Positions 488 through 19,116 of a stretch of 24,518 bases of DNA are shown here, one piece after another. Position 1 is the first letter of the stretch; the number at the start of each line of letters is the position of its first letter. Below the pieces are notes generated by a model. The model was not told the DNA's origin. It worked only from the letters and a program-made list of their open reading frames with translations, and searched no databases. This DNA comes from a virus, in the IMG/VR virus record IMGVR_UViG_3300025380_000009, positions 1 to 24,518 of that record, one strand, 5' to 3'. Both the position numbers and the translations under genes were made by a program.

Positions 488-3400
488 TTACAATATCTCA
501 AAGGTTGTTACTAATCCGTCTTTTACAACTACTACCCATTCATCTGAGTTAAGATCCGTGAAATACTTGGTAAGGTTCGCACCATTGGTTCCATCAGAAG
601 ATTGAAAATTATTGAGCGTTTTTATATTCCCCCCGGCGATAAAGTGATCATCTGTTGATAGAATATTTGCTGCAGATCTGTAGAGATTGGTATCTGTAGC
701 ATCACCCAGATAGATCCCATCTGCCATAGTCCTTACTGCGATATCACCATCATAGTAAATGTTCACTGAGTTATCCGGATCAAAGGTGAGCCCATACTTA
801 TTTACCCCAGAAGCGTTCTGAGCCCACATCACTATCCCAGTACCATGATATTGATTGTAGATCCAGAGGATATTTGAGCTTACATAGATTTTAGCATACC
901 CGGTAGTATTTACCCCTATATACAGATCTGCACCGACAATATGGAAATCAGCTTCAGATGTGAGAACTCCACTTGCATTGTCCAGATAGATATTGGAATC
1001 TACAGATCCAAATCCTATCCCCTCACTATAAAGGGGAATTGTATCTGTAGAGGATTGCCAAAATAAATAGGCTTCCGTTCCACCAGCGTTCTCAGTATGA
1101 AGTGCGTAGATATCAGATCCTGCAGCCCCCAGTGAACCATTAGACCAGCCTATAACCGTATTCACATAAGGGAAAAATAGCCCTTCCCATGATCCGATTA
1201 CATTCTCACCAAGTCTTGCTATTTCATTATTGCTTGAGTCATAGAAGTGGAGCCTTCCATTCACGTAATCAAGTTCTATTCTCTGGTTCCCAGCACCAGC
1301 ACCAACAAAGCTACCAGTAGCATCTAAGCCCTTCGCTTTGTTTTCTACACTGGCAGCACGAACATTTGCTGAAGCAGCCTTATTGTCAGCCAGCAGAGCA
1401 GCCTGCTTCGCCGTTTTTGCCTGAGCATAGGCTGTTTTGGAACTGTTCACAGCACTGACAGCAATAGCATTTGCAGTCTTGGCTTTGGTGTAAGCGGTAT
1501 CTGCAGAAACCTGAGCGGATCCAGCTTTTTTGTCAGCAGCATTGGCGGAAGTCTGAGCATTATCTGCATCTTGATTTGCAGTCTTGGCTTTAGCATAGGC
1601 AGTGGCAGCATGAGCCGTTGCATCCGTGGCAGTATCCAGTGCATCGTCTGCAGTATTCTGAGCTCCATTTGCAACTACCAGAGCAGATCCTGCTTTCACG
1701 TCTGCAGATCCTGCTTTATTGTCAGCGATTGCTGCATCATTTTTTGCGGTTAGTGCCTGAGCCTGAGCGGATCCTGCATTAGCGAGTGCTACAGATGCTT
1801 CACCACCGGAAGAGATTGCACGAACCAAAGCGGATTGAGCTTTGGATCCTGCAGATCCAGCTTTCTGATCTGCGAGTGTAGCTGCCTGTTTTGCAGTTTT
1901 TGCAGAGTTTACAGCGGATGTAGCGATGATTCTGGCAGTGTTTGCCTGAGCATAAGCCGATTTTGCATGAATATCCGCATCGTCTGCATCTTTGATAGCT
2001 GTGGATGCTTTTGCCTCACCAGATCTGGCACGGGCTTCCCCGGACTTGGCACGGGATTCTGCTGAAGTGGCTGTATCTAATGCCAGAGCAGCTTCACCCC
2101 CGGCTGAAATTGCACGGGTAAGAGCAGAAGAGGCTTTTGCATCAGCGGATCCAGCCTTCACCAGAGCAGATCCCGCTTTCACATTGGCAGACTTAGCCAC
2201 GTTCTGGGCAGAAGTGGCATTGGTGTTTGCAGTGTTTGCTTTAGCCAGAGCGGTTTTACTTGAATTTTGAGCACTGACAGCATTTGCATTTGCTGTGGCA
2301 GATCTGGCATCAGCGGATTGGGATCTCACATCTGAAGATCCAGCTTTGACAATGGCACTATCAGCCTTGTTATCTGCCAGAGCAGCATCCTGAACTGCAG
2401 TATTTGCCCGGGATAGGGCAGAACTTGCCTGTGATCCAGCGGAGCCAGCACGAACATCAGCAGAAGCAGCTTTGATTAATGCACTCCCAGCCTTTTGATC
2501 AGCCAGAGTAGCAGCTTGTTTTGCAGTGGTAGCTTTCGCTTCCCCGGACTTGGCACGGGATTCTGCAGAGGTTGCTGTATCCAGAGCCAAAGCAGCCTCA
2601 CCACCAGCGGATATCGCCCGAGTGAGGGCACTACTTGCCTTCGCATCTGCAGAGCCTGATTTGACCAATGCGGAGCTTGCTTTATCATCTGCATCTGAGG
2701 CATCAGAAATTGCTTGGGTTGCATCAGTCTGGGCAGATTTGGCTACAGCATCAGCGGATCCTGCTTTTATGCTGGCAGATCCTGCCTTTACGCTGGCTGA
2801 ATCAGCCTTCACTGAAGCACTTTGAGATCTTACATCAGCGGATTGAGATCTCACATCAGCGGATCCCGCTTTTACTATTGCACTATCTGCCTTGTTATCT
2901 GCCAGTAAAGCATCTTGCTTCGCTGTCTGGGCAAGTGCATCTGCTGAAGCTGCTTTAACTAATGCACTGCCAGCCTTTTTATCCGCTGAAGATGCCCGAA
3001 CATCTGCAGAATGAGATCTGGCTGTAGAATCACCTACATTTTCAAGCAGCTTAGATGCATCGTCTGGGAGCTTGCCATCTTTAAGGTTTGTGAACCCCGT
3101 ATGAACTACTCCATCCGCCTGAACTACGTTTCCACCGCCCTCTTGAATCAGCGTTCCTGTAGGAAGATTCCCTGCAGGAAGAGCAGGGTTTGCATTTGGC
3201 TGGTAATCGCTCCAATTAGCATGAGCATATACAGCCCCTTCCGTGGATCCAGATTTGGTAGAGAAGTATGGATATACCTTAAATGTTATGAAATCATCCC
3301 CGGGGAGATTGATCGAGAACTTCCGAACAGTGGAATCCACTTTTACAGATGGACTGGAATCATCCACCGTTTGGGGAGATCCGGATCCGTGGCTCCATCG

Positions 3401-3793
3401 AACGATAAAACCATGAGCGAATTCAGAGCCCTGAGTGAATCCCCATTCAATCGTGACCTGAGCACTCAGTTTATTATTTACATGCCCTACAGGAGTAGAT
3501 CCTGCAGCAAAGGAACCATTGGGAGCGGTATCGTTTACAAACTGCTCCACACCTTCGATCAGAGTATTAGATACTACCTCAATCCCATAGAGATTATCAG
3601 CGGGGGTAGTTCCCCCGCCTGTAAAAGTAACATCATACTTCCCAGACACCGGGCGGATGAACTCCCAGTATCCTTTTTGATCACCGACCTGCTTGGATTC
3701 AATGGTATCTATTCGAACAGAATCTGATTGGCGAACCAGATCTACCCGGACACCAGTAATTCCAATATTTCCGCTTAATGATTCCTGTGGCAT
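488..3793 (-). CDS. Giant alanine-heptad tail fibre protein
   Basis: This 1101-residue protein has the architecture of a long trimeric tail fibre. Residues 1-100 form a beta-rich attachment region and residues about 108-200 look like a fibronectin type III fold. A linker leads into a pure heptad region at residues 262-821: 80 consecutive seven-residue units of form S-A-x-x-K/R-A-x with alanine at positions 2 and 6, without a single skip. Residues after 825 are beta-rich, with fibre-type strand repeats such as Y-L-G-D followed by N-L-Y-R-S-A-A-N. The protein ends in V-V-V-V-K-D-G-L-V-T, resembling the C-terminal caps of other tail fibres. A coiled coil of 560 residues would be roughly 84 nm long (0.15 nm per residue, known for coiled coils). 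The likely role is host recognition at a distance from the baseplate. The ATG at 3793 lies 8 bases after the preceding gene. Low-complexity coding makes long spurious frames appear on the opposite strand. Confidence 0.8.
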   Translation of the reverse strand: MPQESLSGNIGITGVRVDLVRQSDSVRIDTIESKQVGDQKGYWEFIRPVSGKYDVTFTGGGTTPADNLYGIEVVSNTLIEGVEQFVNDTAPNGSFAAGSTPVGHVNNKLSAQVTIEWGFTQGSEFAHGFIVRWSHGSGSPQTVDDSSPSVKVDSTVRKFSINLPGDDFITFKVYPYFSTKSGSTEGAVYAHANWSDYQPNANPALPAGNLPTGTLIQEGGGNVVQADGVVHTGFTNLKDGKLPDDASKLLENVGDSTARSHSADVRASSADKKAGSALVKAASADALAQTAKQDALLADNKADSAIVKAGSADVRSQSADVRSQSASVKADSASVKAGSASIKAGSADAVAKSAQTDATQAISDASDADDKASSALVKSGSADAKASSALTRAISAGGEAALALDTATSAESRAKSGEAKATTAKQAATLADQKAGSALIKAASADVRAGSAGSQASSALSRANTAVQDAALADNKADSAIVKAGSSDVRSQSADARSATANANAVSAQNSSKTALAKANTANTNATSAQNVAKSANVKAGSALVKAGSADAKASSALTRAISAGGEAALALDTATSAESRAKSGEARARSGEAKASTAIKDADDADIHAKSAYAQANTARIIATSAVNSAKTAKQAATLADQKAGSAGSKAQSALVRAISSGGEASVALANAGSAQAQALTAKNDAAIADNKAGSADVKAGSALVVANGAQNTADDALDTATDATAHAATAYAKAKTANQDADNAQTSANAADKKAGSAQVSADTAYTKAKTANAIAVSAVNSSKTAYAQAKTAKQAALLADNKAASANVRAASVENKAKGLDATGSFVGAGAGNQRIELDYVNGRLHFYDSSNNEIARLGENVIGSWEGLFFPYVNTVIGWSNGSLGAAGSDIYALHTENAGGTEAYLFWQSSTDTIPLYSEGIGFGSVDSNIYLDNASGVLTSEADFHIVGADLYIGVNTTGYAKIYVSSNILWIYNQYHGTGIVMWAQNASGVNKYGLTFDPDNSVNIYYDGDIAVRTMADGIYLGDATDTNLYRSAANILSTDDHFIAGGNIKTLNNFQSSDGTNGANLTKYFTDLNSDEWVVVVKDGLVTTFEIL
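2024..2170 (-). repeat. Seven-heptad block, copy 2 (heptads 41-47)
   Basis: This 147-base block encodes heptads 41-47, in order beginning SALVKAG, SADAKAS, SALTRAI, SAGGEAA, LALDTAT, SAESRAK. It matches the block at 2528-2674 in 46 of 49 residues by my alignment, 504 bases away. DNA identity is far lower, mainly through synonymous changes, except for a nearly identical stretch near the SAESRAK-SGEA end. Confidence 0.85.
2528..2674 (-). repeat. Seven-heptad block, copy 1 (heptads 17-23)
   Basis: This is the partner of the block at 2024-2170, beginning SALVKSG and then SADAKAS, SALTRAI, SAGGEAA, LALDTAT, SAESRAK. A third, more diverged relative occurs at heptads 55-59 (SALVRAI, SSGGEAS). Such blocks could recombine in frame and change fibre length in multiples of seven residues. 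Confidence 0.85.
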
Positions 3794-14124: not shown

Positions 14125-16134
14125 CTACTTCCCTGCCCCGGCAAAAGCTCTAAAATTACCACTCTCAGATTGTATAAAGTCCCAGAGAGTTCCCATTCTC
14201 CTACTGAACGTAGCTTCATCATTAGTCGGTGGAAGCCCGCTCAGAACCCTCTTGGCTTCATCACTATCCAGCGTAGTTCTGGCAAAAGCGATTACTACAT
14301 CATTCATCATGGATGCAGCACTCTCAAATGCAGTAGCTGCAGTTTCGATCTTGCCAATCTCCCCGGCGATCGCTGCCTGCTGATCTTCAAATCCAAAGGT
14401 ATCCCTAAAGGTAGCTATGCGCTTATTGAATGCATCCTCACTGCCCTGCAGTCCTTCCTTAATAGTTTCAGCTATCAGTTCAGCCTGAGTTTTTGGTGGA
14501 TCCTTTTCATCCCCGCCTGAAGTAGCACCACGGATATATTTCTTTTCCTCATCTGTGAGATCTGAAGAGGATCCTATAAAAGTTGCAAATTCAGCTTCAG
14601 ACATATTGCCGATCTCTGGGAGTTTATCCCCAAATCGTTCCATGAGCTCTACCAGAGAGTTCATTGCCTTGTCTGGGTTATAGAGTTCAGCCATCTGGAG
14701 ACGGTTTCCAGACCACTTTTTAAGCAGGAAGGATTGATCCCATCTGGTTCTCTCAATATCCTTCCCAGCACCAGATGCCATATCCCGAGCCATCCCGAAA
14801 AATTCAGTTAGCATTCGTGGATCTGCCATGCCTTGTTCCTGCAGAGCAGTGACCTGTCCGATCGAAAAATCTTGTCCCCCACGCTCCATAATTCTTAGAG
14901 CAGCCTGAAAGCCCATTCCACCAGTTGCCATCGTGTCATGCAGCCCACTCAGTACATTACCCCCACGGGATCCCCGGAAGGGCTCTCCCATCGTTCCGAA
15001 CAGTCCGGCATACCTTGATATCATCCCGGGATCCTGCATCGTTACGGCGGTCTGTATGACTGATTCAGTAACACCCATCACTTCCTGTAGGAATTCTGGC
15101 AATCTGGCTACACCGATCCCAGACATAACACCTTCAGCGATCGCCTGCTTTAGTATCGTGGGATCTGCCATAGGAGAGTATCCGGTTTTACCCTGAGCAG
15201 ATACGAACCCAGTGGATTCGCTATTACCTATTCCATAGGCTTTGCCCAGTGAAATTGTACTCTGGAGATCTAATCTTCTCTGGACAGGATCACCAGCACC
15301 AGCACCCAAGATCCGCATCCACGTTTTTTCTAACCCGGCTAATTCACTCAGGGAAGTAGCAGTAGTTAAAGCTACTGCTTCAAATGATTCACGGAAGGCT
15401 TCAGCATTCACTGGGAGCGTTTCAGACATTGCACTGATCTCAGTGAGATCCTTCAGGATATCCTTGTAAGAAGTCCATCCTTCCTGAAGAGCCTGAACAC
15501 CCTTAAATGCAGCATAACCCACTACACCAACACCCAGCCCGGTAGCGAGTTTTGCACCCGTTCCCATGCCAGCCATCTTCCGGGTTACTGCTCCAGTAAC
15601 ACCCTGAACAGCACCTGTAGCTACACCACCAGCACCACCACGCATTCCGCTCTGGGTGAGATCTCCGATCATCCCCGGGGAATCACGCTGCTGGGGATCA
15701 TAAACTCCCTGATCCAGAGCCCACTGCTTTGCAGCAGCGGATGATTCTGTATTCCGGGTTGCATCGTCTAAGGCTCCAGTTTTAACTCCATAGATCTCTG
15801 CTTGGATTCGTTCAAGATCACGTTTTTTTGTGCCCTTTTCCCTGCCACTGGAAGAGGATACTTCCTGCCGGGCGATCTTCTCTTGGTGCTGCAGTTCAGA
15901 CATTCTGCTTTTGTTTTCAGCCTGTTCAAGCTGGCGGATAAGCTGAAGCTGATCATTTAGAAACTTATTCTGCTTTTTTAGATCTTCCGGATATTTTTCT
16001 GCAGCTTCTGATTTGATCTCATTAAAACGAGAAAATCCCTGTGATGCAAGATCCATAGCCCGGGTTTGTTCAGCAAGTTCCTGCTTCCCGGTTACTCTGG
16101 TTCCAACATTTACTTGGATATTTTGTTCAGTCAT
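14125..16134 (-). CDS. Tail tape measure protein
   Basis: This 669-residue protein sets tail length and probably helps genome passage. Residues 35-120 are charged and strongly coiled-coil-like. Residues about 164-215 form a Gly/Ala-rich hydrophobic stretch (G-A-K-L-A-T-G-L-G-V-G-V-V-G-Y), common in tape measures. The rest is mostly helical. With the usual 0.15 nm per residue of an alpha helix, the length corresponds to a tail of about 100 nm, inside the myovirus range. It follows the chaperone frames and precedes the hub, as expected. GAGGAT lies about 5 bases before the ATG. No lysozyme or peptidase motif is evident. Confidence 0.88.
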   Translation of the reverse strand: MTEQNIQVNVGTRVTGKQELAEQTRAMDLASQGFSRFNEIKSEAAEKYPEDLKKQNKFLNDQLQLIRQLEQAENKSRMSELQHQEKIARQEVSSSSGREKGTKKRDLERIQAEIYGVKTGALDDATRNTESSAAAKQWALDQGVYDPQQRDSPGMIGDLTQSGMRGGAGGVATGAVQGVTGAVTRKMAGMGTGAKLATGLGVGVVGYAAFKGVQALQEGWTSYKDILKDLTEISAMSETLPVNAEAFRESFEAVALTTATSLSELAGLEKTWMRILGAGAGDPVQRRLDLQSTISLGKAYGIGNSESTGFVSAQGKTGYSPMADPTILKQAIAEGVMSGIGVARLPEFLQEVMGVTESVIQTAVTMQDPGMISRYAGLFGTMGEPFRGSRGGNVLSGLHDTMATGGMGFQAALRIMERGGQDFSIGQVTALQEQGMADPRMLTEFFGMARDMASGAGKDIERTRWDQSFLLKKWSGNRLQMAELYNPDKAMNSLVELMERFGDKLPEIGNMSEAEFATFIGSSSDLTDEEKKYIRGATSGGDEKDPPKTQAELIAETIKEGLQGSEDAFNKRIATFRDTFGFEDQQAAIAGEIGKIETAATAFESAASMMNDVVIAFARTTLDSDEAKRVLSGLPPTNDEATFSRRMGTLWDFIQSESGNFRAFAGAGK

Positions 16135-16156: not shown

Positions 16157-16621
16157 TTAAATATCAGGTAGGTCTATTCCCAGTTCGTCTTTGACCGTCT
16201 GGGCAAAATCATCGTCCACATAGTCGGTCTGATCGGATCCTTCAGGGATCGTCATTTCAGCACCACACCGGGGGCAGTAGGTTGAATTAGGATAAGGTGC
16301 TCCCATGAAATCGCATTCCGGGCAGTGGGGGACACTGCGCTTTTGCTGGGCATCACGCTCACGCTTAATGCTTCGCTGGATCTCAAATTCTACAAGGATT
16401 CCCTCATCCGTCATTTCCAAATAGCGGGGATCCGTGGGGGGAAGATTGTACTTCTCCCTGAACCAGATACGATGCCAATTATCCTTTATCTGACCTTCAG
16501 CCAGATTCCGGAGTTCAGCTTCCGTTCTCTCCTGATTCGGATCCTTCAGAGCCATCACTGGGTTTATCGGGTTGACTGCGAAACAGCCCGGACTTTTCAG
16601 TCCACGCCCTCCAGACTTCAT
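16157..16621 (-). CDS. Tail assembly chaperone, downstream frame (T-like) with zinc ribbon
   Basis: This frame lies in +1 (equivalently -2) relative to the upstream chaperone gene and overlaps its last 107 bases. From the first ATG it gives 154 residues. The first ~20 are unlikely to be natural because they use the upstream gene's coding sequence in a shifted frame, so expression by programmed frameshift is more plausible. The typical T-domain begins near M-A-L-K-D-P-N-Q-E-R and continues with W-F-R-E-K-Y-N-L-P-P-T-D-P-R-Y. A zinc ribbon follows: C100-P-E-C103 and C116-P-R-C119. In the G/GT system the fused protein coats the tape measure during tube polymerisation. An independent start at 16621 is possible: a purine-rich AAGAAGAG sequence lies a few bases upstream. 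The zinc ribbon is not a usual feature of T domains. Confidence 0.72.
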   Translation of the reverse strand: MKSGGRGLKSPGCFAVNPINPVMALKDPNQERTEAELRNLAEGQIKDNWHRIWFREKYNLPPTDPRYLEMTDEGILVEFEIQRSIKRERDAQQKRSVPHCPECDFMGAPYPNSTYCPRCGAEMTIPEGSDQTDYVDDDFAQTVKDELGIDLPDI

Positions 16622-16636
16622 CGAGCTCTTCTTTTG
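16515..16636 (-). other. Probable programmed frameshift region between chaperone frames
   Basis: The +1 frame is open from base 16636 (just after a TAA) to the 0-frame stop TGA at 16515, so any shift must occur here. Candidate sites, reading 5' to 3' on the minus strand, are TTT-CGC (16583), where Phe-tRNA could re-pair with TTC; CCC-GAT (16571); and CCC-AGT (16562). No classical lambda-type -1 heptamer fits, because the required shift is +1 or -2. Mu-type tails use -2 shifts and some phages use +1, so there is precedent. The exact site cannot be fixed from the sequence. Confidence 0.55.
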
Positions 16637-16904
16637 TTAGCTCCTTAAAACCCTTCCAATCATCTGAAGGGGCTTTGATTAAACGTCCATCTAACTCACA
16701 CATGCGATTTATCCGCCATGCAGCCATCATTTCACTCACATCAGGGGAGACGATCATTTGACCATATAAGCCATTGGTGATCGTGCTCCGCCTGACAGCA
16801 ATATCGGATTCCGCTCCGATTTTCAGCTTGTTATTAAAAACAAACGTCCCTACAGATACGGAAATCGTACTTTGATCTTCGATCTTTTTCTCTTCAGTTG
16901 TCAT
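16515..16904 (-). CDS. Tail assembly chaperone, upstream frame (G-like)
   Basis: This 129-residue protein sits between tube and tape measure, where tail chaperones are encoded. Residues 40-75 (N-G-L-Y-G-Q-M-I-V, D-V-S-E-M-M-A-A-W-R-I-N-R-M) and 82-115 (D-D-W-K-G-F-K-E-L through E-V-W-R-A-W) match the helical pattern of XkdN/gpG-like chaperones. The last 25 residues are Gly/Ser/Glu-rich and low in complexity, as often seen just beyond a frameshift site. AGGGA precedes the ATG closely. It is expected to bind tape measure protein and keep it soluble, mainly as the unshifted product. Confidence 0.72.
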   Translation of the reverse strand: MTTEEKKIEDQSTISVSVGTFVFNNKLKIGAESDIAVRRSTITNGLYGQMIVSPDVSEMMAAWRINRMCELDGRLIKAPSDDWKGFKELTKEELDEVWRAWTEKSGLFRSQPDKPSDGSEGSESGENGS

Positions 16905-16930: not shown

Positions 16931-17365
16931 TTATGGGGTGATCATTGGCTCACCATACTGCCCAGATCCGTTCTGTGTAACAATAGCATTCTCCCCTACG
17001 GTAATGCTCAGATTGGACATAATACAGCCTTGTATGGTAGCTATGTTTGCTTTGGTATATTTATCTTCGATCACTACTGAAAAGCCCTCTTTATTAAGGA
17101 TTTCCCGTGCTACTGCACCAGAGTCCTTACCAGAGCGTTCTGCATACTTTAGATCAGCAATTCTCTCAGATGATAATACCAGTTTAGAGAAGTTGAAGGT
17201 TCCACTGAAACGCAATGCTACTAATTCCTGTGGGGTGAAATTTCCGATGCCATAGACACCCTGAACACCATAATCTTCATTCTCAGTAATGTTAGTCAAG
17301 ACACCAATTTTCGTGCCTTCAAAAACCACATGCACCCTTGCACCGTGAACTACTTTACCGCTCAT
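16931..17365 (-). CDS. Tail tube protein
   Basis: This 144-residue protein directly follows the sheath gene and has the size and layout of contractile-tail tube proteins. It begins with a G-A-R-V-H-V-V-F-E-G strand pair, then Q-G-V-Y-G-I-G-N-F-T-P-Q-E-L, S-G-T-F-N-F-S-K-L near residues 54-62, and the C-terminal G-C-I-M-S-N-L-S-I-T-V strand. The fold expected is the tube beta barrel that stacks as hexamers inside the sheath. AAGGAG at 17379-17374 lies 8 bases before the ATG, one of the strongest ribosome-binding sites here, in line with a protein needed in many copies. Confidence 0.85.
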   Translation of the reverse strand: MSGKVVHGARVHVVFEGTKIGVLTNITENEDYGVQGVYGIGNFTPQELVALRFSGTFNFSKLVLSSERIADLKYAERSGKDSGAVAREILNKEGFSVVIEDKYTKANIATIQGCIMSNLSITVGENAIVTQNGSGQYGEPMITP

Positions 17366-17391: not shown

Positions 17392-19116
17392 TTAAAGCAC
17401 GGCTATTGATTCAATTAAAAAGAAATTGAACGGGTTATTGATTCTGAATGAAACCTTTGTGCTCCATCCATCCCCGAGACGTTCTGCCACGACATTTTCC
17501 CACGCTGGCAGAATGTTCTCTGGATCTGAATCATTTTCAGCGATAACACCCTCTTTTTCTTTTGTTTTGCAGTACCCTTCCACAAAGCCCACAATGGTAG
17601 CATGACCAACACCGACCGTTCCACCAATGAAGATACGATCAGCAGCTACTGCTAATCCTTTGTTGAAGTCTCCTGCAGATCTCATCAGGGAGATCTCTGG
17701 GGATGCATTGGAAGCTGTATCCCAGAGGCTGGCATTGTTCTGCATGGTATTAATACCCTGATTAACTACAGTGCCAATTCCATCCATATCCCGGGGGCAG
17801 ATAATTCCACCACGGATAAAATCTTCACGATCCTGTTTGATAAAATCATACTGCAGACCCTGACAACTAAAAACCTTCCGGGTAAGCGGTTGCTGAACTG
17901 GAAGCCCAGCAGCTAACCCAGCGACTTTTGCTGCAAAGAATTTAGGGGCAATTTCTTCTACCCCGGATCCATCCACTGCGAATTCTTTGATCCCACAAGC
18001 TACCAAGCTACCGTATGGAGTATTCATCAGTTTAGCCTGTGCAAGAGTAGTGCTTTTTGCGAGTGCTGCAGTAGTCTGGGATGCCATCCCAAAATAACCT
18101 TCACGGAAATATGAGTGAGCAGCACAATGAGCAGTAACAAGAGCATGATCTGCAGCAGTCTCTGAATCGATCCAGATGATCTGAGCATTTGCCTCTTCTG
18201 CCAATACTAATGCAGCAGTGATCTCTGCAGTATCCATTGCTGGAGCAGCACCAGCAGCAAGGAACTCATAACCCGTGGTATTTGCGAGCTTGGCTCCATC
18301 TGTTACTACAGTAAGATCTACAAAGGCACTATAATTGTTCAGGACATACTCAGAGATATATGGATATCCCTGTAATACCAAAGCAGCGGATTTCACATCG
18401 CCTTCAGCTAAAGTATTGAGGATCGTGCTATTCAGCGTTCCAACACCAGAATAGGTGTTTTCATACATCGAGCAAGTCCAGTCTGCCAGAGCTTCGATAG
18501 CTGCTGCTACCTTGCTCACAGTGTTATAGCTGGAGAGTGCAAAATCGAAATCAAATTCCACTAACTCAGATGCTGCAGTTCCAGCAGATCCTATGATATG
18601 ATTTCCAGCAGTGATTTCCAGTAACCCAGAATCCAAAGCTCCCTCATACTGAATTGACAATGCCAGATCCAGATAATCGAAGGTTTCTGTTTTGTCCTGA
18701 AAAACTACAGTGATCTTGGATCCCGCTGCGACTGTAGCAGCTTCGATCTTCACCGAAATGCCATTCACATAGGTTCCATAATCCTTAGAATCTACCGTTC
18801 CACTGGTTGCATCGTGGGTTGCGATCGTGGCAGCTTGTGCCCTGATATATCCCACGTAGGGGGCTCCAGCGTGATACTGGGATGGATTGAATAAATATCC
18901 CATAGCCCGTAAACTGTCACCAGAGCGGAGCACTGCTTCTGCCTGCCCTTTGTTCGTGAACCAGCTTATTTCGTCTGGTGTACCACCTTCACTTGAACCG
19001 ATCAGGATAACCCGTCCAGTAGCAAGTGGATTTGCCCGGGGGGTTACGCCTACCGTGAACTTCGATTTAGCCTGTGGTTCGACTAAAATTTGATTGTCAA
19101 ACTTCTGCTGGCTCAT
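17392..19116 (-). CDS. Contractile tail sheath protein
   Basis: This 574-residue protein matches the phage tail sheath family. It has the early V-G-V-T-P-R segment, then R-V-I-L-I-G-S-S-E-G-G and the conserved start of the first domain (Y-H-A-G-A-P-Y-V-G-Y-I-R-A). A middle beta-rich insertion at about residues 105-215 matches the surface domain seen in larger sheaths. The conserved C-terminal domain includes V-F-S-C-Q-G-L, G-G-I-I-C-P-R-D, D-R-I-F-I-G-G-T-V-G-V-G and the closing E-R-L-G-D-G-W with I-N-N-P-F-N-F-F. The final beta strand (I-E-S-I-A-V-L) probably swaps between neighbours in the helical lattice. Its strong AAAGGAG ribosome-binding site and position just before the tube gene are typical. 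Confidence 0.93.
   Translation of the reverse strand: MSQQKFDNQILVEPQAKSKFTVGVTPRANPLATGRVILIGSSEGGTPDEISWFTNKGQAEAVLRSGDSLRAMGYLFNPSQYHAGAPYVGYIRAQAATIATHDATSGTVDSKDYGTYVNGISVKIEAATVAAGSKITVVFQDKTETFDYLDLALSIQYEGALDSGLLEITAGNHIIGSAGTAASELVEFDFDFALSSYNTVSKVAAAIEALADWTCSMYENTYSGVGTLNSTILNTLAEGDVKSAALVLQGYPYISEYVLNNYSAFVDLTVVTDGAKLANTTGYEFLAAGAAPAMDTAEITAALVLAEEANAQIIWIDSETAADHALVTAHCAAHSYFREGYFGMASQTTAALAKSTTLAQAKLMNTPYGSLVACGIKEFAVDGSGVEEIAPKFFAAKVAGLAAGLPVQQPLTRKVFSCQGLQYDFIKQDREDFIRGGIICPRDMDGIGTVVNQGINTMQNNASLWDTASNASPEISLMRSAGDFNKGLAVAADRIFIGGTVGVGHATIVGFVEGYCKTKEKEGVIAENDSDPENILPAWENVVAERLGDGWSTKVSFRINNPFNFFLIESIAVL

Follow-up and report, generated by a model that had tools for sequence, protein, structure and literature searches.

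A predicted +1 frameshift at UUU_C joins the two frames of a tail assembly chaperone in a broad group of phages

We analysed two overlapping frames, here called G and T, among the tail genes of a viral contig, and we predict with high confidence that this pair and its relatives yield two tail assembly chaperones from one start by means of a +1 ribosomal slip at UUU_C. An in-frame TTT-C lies within the overlap of the two frames in 82 of 84 clusters of relatives, against 5.5 of 84 expected from shuffled overlaps. The direction of such a shift is already known. What is new is the predicted tail-chaperone +1 shift at UUU_C, a site which has the same tetranucleotide and the same kind of A-site codon as the PA-X site of influenza A.

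Results

G and T occupy the chaperone place in a tail operon

The window, which is the whole stretch of 24,518 bases that was analysed, has a tail-operon-like order of genes on its minus strand: sheath, tube position, G, T, and a 669-aa ORF (Table 1). The family matched at the tube position, phrog_985, is filed under head and packaging, and the gene at the same place is annotated as 'major tail protein' in the phages Dolphis, Jeremy, and ST4. Family searches with the 669-aa ORF gave no informative match, and we consider it the probable tape measure protein from its position. Seven of the eight named phages introduced below have an annotated sheath gene two places upstream of G/T and a long ORF downstream. 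Phage phiT5282EW has the same gene layout with every gene annotated 'hypothetical', and the gene downstream of G/T is called tape measure in none of the eight records. Elsewhere in the window, a 1101-aa ORF (488-3793) has a marginal match to the alanine-zipper family PF11839 (E 5.5e-5; 23.8 bits with a cut-off of 23.1), and is perhaps a tail fibre protein.

Table 1. Features of the tail region of the window
Feature	Coordinates	Strand	Basis or remark
Tail sheath	17392..19116	-	phrog_279 tail sheath, E 2.4e-38
Tail tube position, next gene upstream of G	16931..17365	-	phrog_985 'virion structural protein', E 7.3e-25
G, short tail assembly chaperone, 129 aa, zero frame	16515..16904	-	ORF including stop; place between tube and tape measure positions; structure model
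Overlap, both frames open, shift confined here	16515..16636	-	T-frame TAA upstream, G stop downstream
Predicted slip site UUU_C, P-site tRNA-Phe UUU to UUC (+1)	16580..16583	-	In-frame TTT-C in 82/84 clusters
A-site zero-frame codon CGC	16578..16580	-	CGN in 78 of 82 TTT-C clusters; a +1 slip would skip C and read GCA
T ORF	16157..16621	-	ORF from its own ATG, frame +1 (equivalently -2) relative to G
T extension after the predicted shift, 141 aa from F on	16157..16582	-	Stop included in coordinates; translated with TTTC as one step
Zinc-ribbon-like CPEC...CPRC segment in T	16247..16342	-	Two CxxC pairs in the sequence
Probable tape measure protein, next gene downstream of T	14125..16134	-	669-aa ORF directly after T; position only

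The original prediction proposed a programmed frameshift into the +1 frame of a tail chaperone, and its reading of the frames holds, because T differs from G by +1 (= -2). The interval that it gave for the shift is the exact overlap: the T frame opens at 16636, just past a TAA located 18 codons before the slip codon, and the other limit, 16515, is the end of G. Its three candidate slip sites, TTT-CGC, CCC-GAT, and CCC-AGT, are all present in frame within this overlap. When TTTC is read as one step, translation gives a predicted G-T fusion of 248 aa followed by a stop. The ribbon segment of T has weak Pfam ribbon matches (E 0.04-0.09) that fall under the curated cut-offs. A zinc-ribbon-like CxxC...CxxC insert is found in T of the window clade and in others, e.g. 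L029-L031 and L033-L035 (loci are numbered with the prefix L), and is absent from shorter T proteins such as those of L053 and L076.

We conclude that G/T is a tail assembly chaperone from its place and its two-frame design. The pair lies between the tube position and a long ORF, and a mechanical ORF test found T at +1 to an overlapping upstream ORF in all 84 clusters, although L101 passes only by way of a doubtful, spurious-looking ORF; some ORF in the -1 relation is also present in 23 of 84. Family searches gave matches to phrog_25000 'tail assembly chaperone' for G of Dolphis (E 1.3e-4), phiT5282EW (3.9e-5), and fHe-Yen8-01 (2.4e-4), and for T of Mecenats66 (9.1e-5) and L076 (2.1e-5), with a weak match for T of Dolphis (E 0.055); G of Mecenats66 and T of L046 did not match this family. 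Within the 230 positions of PHROG 25000, G frames match inside 19-127 and T frames inside 123-208, meeting at the slip residue, and thus the family is one chain that runs through the junction. The window's own G and T had no chaperone family match in these searches, and its link to the family would come through its relatives. In a predicted structure of window G (pLDDT 89), the last helix ends at residue 105, three residues before the slip residue F108; this model matched nothing in the PDB at E <= 0.001. The model of G from L076 (pLDDT 90) matched the predicted structures of tail assembly chaperones from Bacillus phage JL (E 2.8e-4) and Lactobacillus phage 521B (1.9e-3) in a search of predicted viral structures.

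Relatives were collected through the T core

Relatives were collected by the T core, with scan patterns lying within the core and the slip site left unused. Protein searches with the window's G and T returned L002-L011 from viral contigs, several of which are the same contig twice. The search of annotated phages gave weak matches to Mecenats66 and Touem01 (E 0.02 and 0.03), G alone having no match there, and searches from these two phages led to Dolphis, Jeremy, ST4, PHB04, phiT5282EW, and fHe-Yen8-01. Three loci from the first T search, L012-L014, were unrelated zinc-ribbon matches and were dropped. Viral contigs were scanned with alignments of 12 (A1) and 14 (A2) T proteins, the seeds of which are themselves TTT-C cases, and A2 was also scanned against genome contigs. 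Two of the T-core scans contributed the best 80 of 83 and the best 80 of 93 qualifying matches. The scan matches listed, the named phages, L009, L010, and the window make 181 loci; this number counts some contigs twice because two scans fetched them, and hence the loci were grouped, at 90% T-core identity, into 84 clusters. Where an overlap holds two TTT-C sites (L038, L052, L127), the site nearer the core was taken. Figures given per 82 are conditional on the presence of TTT-C, and the unconditional count is 82 of 84. A comparison of two G alignments (A4 and A5) is circular because they have members in common, and was excluded from the evidence. The junction also occurs in bacterial genome contigs filed under Geminicoccus, Rhodovarius, Azospirillum, Methylovulum, Novacetimonas, and others (L103-L113), and these loci are probably prophages or phage contigs.

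UUU_C is conserved at the junction

The in-frame TTT-C persists when the clusters are made broader, occurring in 72 of 74 at 70% identity, 42 of 43 at 50%, and 19 of 20 at 40%. TTTC is found in the two other phases of the overlap in only 14 and 4 of 84 clusters, and elsewhere in the same genes Phe is encoded by TTT 263 times and by TTC 401 times. All eight named phages have TTT-C at the junction with T at +1, followed as TTT CGC in Dolphis, Jeremy, ST4, phiT5282EW, Mecenats66, and Touem01, and as TTT CGA in PHB04 and fHe-Yen8-01. In the bacterial genome contigs, the junction TTT-C is present at 11 of 11 loci. We also scanned viral contigs by sequence with the 18-nt pattern AAGGAGGNNTCYTTTCGH, using no protein information, and obtained 61 stretches, 38 of which are this junction with the T core at +1. 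Thirty of the 38 are distinct by the 70 residues compared, and some lie on contigs outside the best-80 lists of the T-core scans. The remainder consists of L197, which is cut by the end of the available DNA, and 22 stretches of a different kind; the 61 were not de-duplicated, and the 22 also include repeats.

Comparison of slip sites across relatives, which had been proposed as a check, singles out TTT-CGC among the three candidates. The two CCC sites did not hold up: only 20 of the 84 clusters have any in-frame CCC within their overlap, and a slip at CCC-GAT or CCC-AGT in the window is therefore a reading to which we give next to no weight, even though published tests show CCC to be prone to +1 slips (PMC3617221, PMC10885494) and it is reported together with UUU as next most slippery in the prfB context (PMC10885494).

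A single-base difference in one genome would give the same picture as a frameshift, and the original prediction had named a sequencing error as one outcome that would overturn it. Recurrence in 82 of 84 clusters, including eight isolates and all 11 bacterial-contig loci, excludes such an error and argues equally against a pseudogene. A run of four T is short for transcriptional slippage, and 73 of the 82 sites have at most four. We regard error, pseudogene, and transcriptional slippage together as extremely improbable.

The two clusters without TTT-C are L162, which has TCC TTT AAA, and L101, a remote relative that shares the T core. In L101, G is apparently in another frame, with a lambda-like GGGAAAA (L101:1387-1400; also L256, L257). 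From its sequence, this locus probably uses a -1 shift at GGGAAAA in place of the +1 shift at UUU_C, hinting that the shift direction has changed within the T family. A search with L101 matched two loci, both 100% identical to the query, and no L101-like locus was found in the phages or plasmids searched.

The permitted stretch contains UUU_C and T lacks an ordinary start codon in a quarter of clusters

The last T-frame stop and the G stop bound the region in which a shift into T can take place. The nearest T-frame stop is 5 nt upstream of TTT (L113, L034, L033) and the nearest G stop is 9 nt downstream (L034). In L034 the permitted stretch is thus 14 nt, and UUU_C is the sole codon there with perfect re-pairing one base on. 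The same 14 nt hold a weaker option, CCU_U, just before the stop, and no CCC.

A different explanation is that T is a separate protein with its own start and without any frameshift, beginning in the window at ATG 16621 or ATG 16555. The T frame of the window does have ATGs 13 codons before and 9 codons after the slip, the first of them (16621) preceded by the purine-rich AAGAAGAG, and phage records annotate T as a separate short ORF. However, in 21 of 84 clusters the stretch that runs from the T-frame stop to the T core holds no ATG, GTG, or TTG, so that in a quarter of clusters a T protein with its core cannot start separately at an ordinary start codon. Between the slip and the core, they are absent in 44 of 82. 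Among 12 loci compared, the ATG 13 codons before the slip is present only in the window and L007. The annotated T start falls 44 to 59 codons past the slip in seven of the eight named phages, beyond the conserved core, which is omitted; only the start annotated in Touem01 precedes the slip. Further, conservation is centred on UUU_CG and not on a start. An internal ATG for a second protein, the other outcome named at the outset as refuting the frameshift, is thereby excluded as a general mechanism, and we consider a separately started T very improbable.

The evidence favors +1 over -2

The downstream ORF lies at +1 and is preceded by a conserved in-frame codon able to re-pair one base on. The original prediction allowed either +1 or -2. 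A -2 shift at the same place leads to the same frame, with a product one residue longer, and is known for phage Mu (PMC5009743, PMC3498833). The C that follows UUU is required for a +1 shift, but not for -2. The codon preceding UUU is highly variable (TCT 19, TCC 18, CGA 10, TTT 8, ACC 6, and 16 other codons in the remaining 21; n=82). A UUU codon stands two bases back in only 9 of 82 clusters (preceding codon TTT or CTT), not including the window (CTG), whereas re-pairing from UUU to UUC is perfect in 82 of 82. Because of these variable bases just upstream and the good re-pairing of tRNA-Phe one base on, we favor +1 and judge a -2 shift very unlikely to be the explanation. At the junction of another clade (L037, L039, L043, L046, L047, L049, L051, L056), two successive Phe codons precede CGT (TTT TTT CGT). 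In this clade the Phe tRNA could re-pair two bases back, and it is possible that -1 or -2 slips are also feasible.

Nucleotide-level signals surround the site

TTT-C was selected for in our counting and the base after it was not. That base is G in 78 of 82 clusters (1.65 bits). The codons following TTT are CGC (34), CGA (21), CGT (21), and CGG (2), with CCC, CAA, CAG, and CTC once each. Given CGN usage in the same genes, CGG would be expected 20.5 times and CGA 10.5 times, so CGG is avoided and CGA is in excess. In bacteria, tRNA-Arg(ICG) reads CGU, CGC, and CGA. The avoidance of CGG may in part be an effect of the T frame, in which CGG would place Gly after F in the fusion; with this rival reason, we leave the tRNA-Arg reading open.

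In 45 of 82 clusters an AAGGAGG-like element, matching in 5 or more of the 7 bases, stands upstream of UUU at a spacing of exactly 5 nt, compared with 0 to 6 clusters at 13 other spacings tested; at 3 nt, 0 of 82 reach 5 of 7. The region upstream of UUU that carries the element is coding in G only. Its Glu codons are biased to GAG over GAA (47:6 vs 462:461 in the same genes), and its Lys codons to AAG over AAA (30:1 vs 124:97). The element is absent at 5 nt from 37 of 82 clusters, among them the window clade, the TTT TTT CGT clade, and others, and would for this reason be at most an added stimulator or pause outside the core signal.

Downstream RNA structure is unremarkable, with a mean z of -0.09 for +8..+68 (n=82). 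Mean z was -0.54 for +6..+106 and -0.68 for -80..0 upstream, with controls of -0.30 and -0.57 (n=82; 81 for the last control). As these two lower values are not distinct from the controls, we do not claim a stimulating RNA structure.

Discussion

A +1 slip would give two chaperones from one start

We propose that the majority of ribosomes would read G through to the G stop. A minority would slip one base forward while the P site holds UUU (16583-16581) and the A site holds CGC, and tRNA-Phe would re-pair on UUC. The C would be skipped, GCA would be read next, and reading would continue into T to give the 248-aa fusion. By analogy with lambda gpG/gpGT, G may form a coat around the tape measure protein, and the fusion may bring in tube protein through its T part. 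The lambda chaperones are reported to be absent from mature virions (PMC5009743). Comparative evidence supports the programmed frameshift that was originally predicted, and narrows it to a +1 shift at UUU_C.

Tail phages are reported to use -1, -2, or +1 shifts for the chaperone gene pair (PMC5009743), so the direction alone is not new. Lambda gpG/gpGT and other chaperone cases use -1 on an XXXYYYZ-type or polyT site, an example being the GTTTTT of the Vandenendeviridae tail assembly chaperone (PMC12846349), in contrast to the +1 on UUU_C predicted here. The original view that the mechanism is unlike that of lambda is supported, since the window T is at +1 and just L101 of 84 clusters looks like -1. 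Mu (-2) and the haloarchaeal virus HSTV-2, whose chaperone shift is described as very likely +1 (PMC5009743), reach the same relative frame in a tail chaperone, although Mu moves back two bases. No description of UUU-C frameshifting in tail chaperones was found in the portions of the open-licence literature covered, and a look through the Mecenats66 paper for the terms frameshift, chaperone, and tape measure found none of them.

The +1 shift of prfB (RF2) is a P-site slippage, as we predict for the phage site, with an internal Shine-Dalgarno-like element upstream, and it is this kind of element that 45 of the 82 phage clusters carry. The prfB site is CUU before a stop codon with 3-nt spacing, whereas the phage site has a sense codon, mostly CGN (CGC in the window), and 5-nt spacing, and the window clade lacks the element. 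In Listeria phage and SPP1, the Tsh shift sites are proline codons. These phages have +1 frameshifting in phage genes, as predicted for the junction studied here, but theirs is in Tsh (PMC3498833) and not in the assembly chaperone.

UUU-pyrimidine sites were reportedly the subject of Schwartz and Curran (1997), and argI is said to be that of Fu and Parker (1994). In a bacterial test system, tRNA-Phe is reported to slip +1 on UUU-CAA when the A-site Gln tRNA is low (PMC3617221), which makes a slip at UUU feasible in bacteria.

There is a close likeness to PA-X of influenza A, in which UCC_UUU_CGU directs a +1 shift: both sites combine UUU_C at the P site with a CGN Arg codon directly after it. 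UCC or UCU precedes UUU in 37 of 82 phage clusters, where PA-X has UCC, and the exact TCCTTTCGT is present in 4 of 82. Replacement of CGU by CGG is reported to cut PA-X shifting by half (PMC3498833), in line with the avoidance of CGG at the phage site. PA-X is nonetheless an unrelated gene read by a eukaryotic ribosome, and about half of the phage clusters add the Shine-Dalgarno-like element. We conclude that the likeness is convergence and not homology.

The junction as a possible recoding signal and its annotation

According to a frameshift-prediction paper (PMC10885494), forward frameshifts have no identified general motif. In our sample a single short motif, UUU_CGN, occupies the homologous junction of 78 of the 84 phage clusters and matches the influenza PA-X site. 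The chances seem to us evenly balanced that UUU_CGH, with AAGGAGG exactly 5 nt upstream in about half of clusters, is a distinct bacterial +1 recoding signal of a broad phage group that influenza A reached independently, the A-site need being for codons of tRNA-Arg(ICG). If this is true, the Arg-CGN step would be a shared trigger in both domains of life. The A-site rule for the PA-X shift is left uncertain in the influenza paper (PMC3498833), and the phage junction offers a simple bacterial model for this +1 slip, with natural junctions that have or lack the internal Shine-Dalgarno-like element available for comparison.

A joined G-T gene is annotated in none of the eight named-phage records. 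T appears in them as a separate hypothetical gene, without the conserved core in seven of the eight, and in the Touem01 record G is unannotated. The UUU_C junction corrects the annotation of G and T in these phages.
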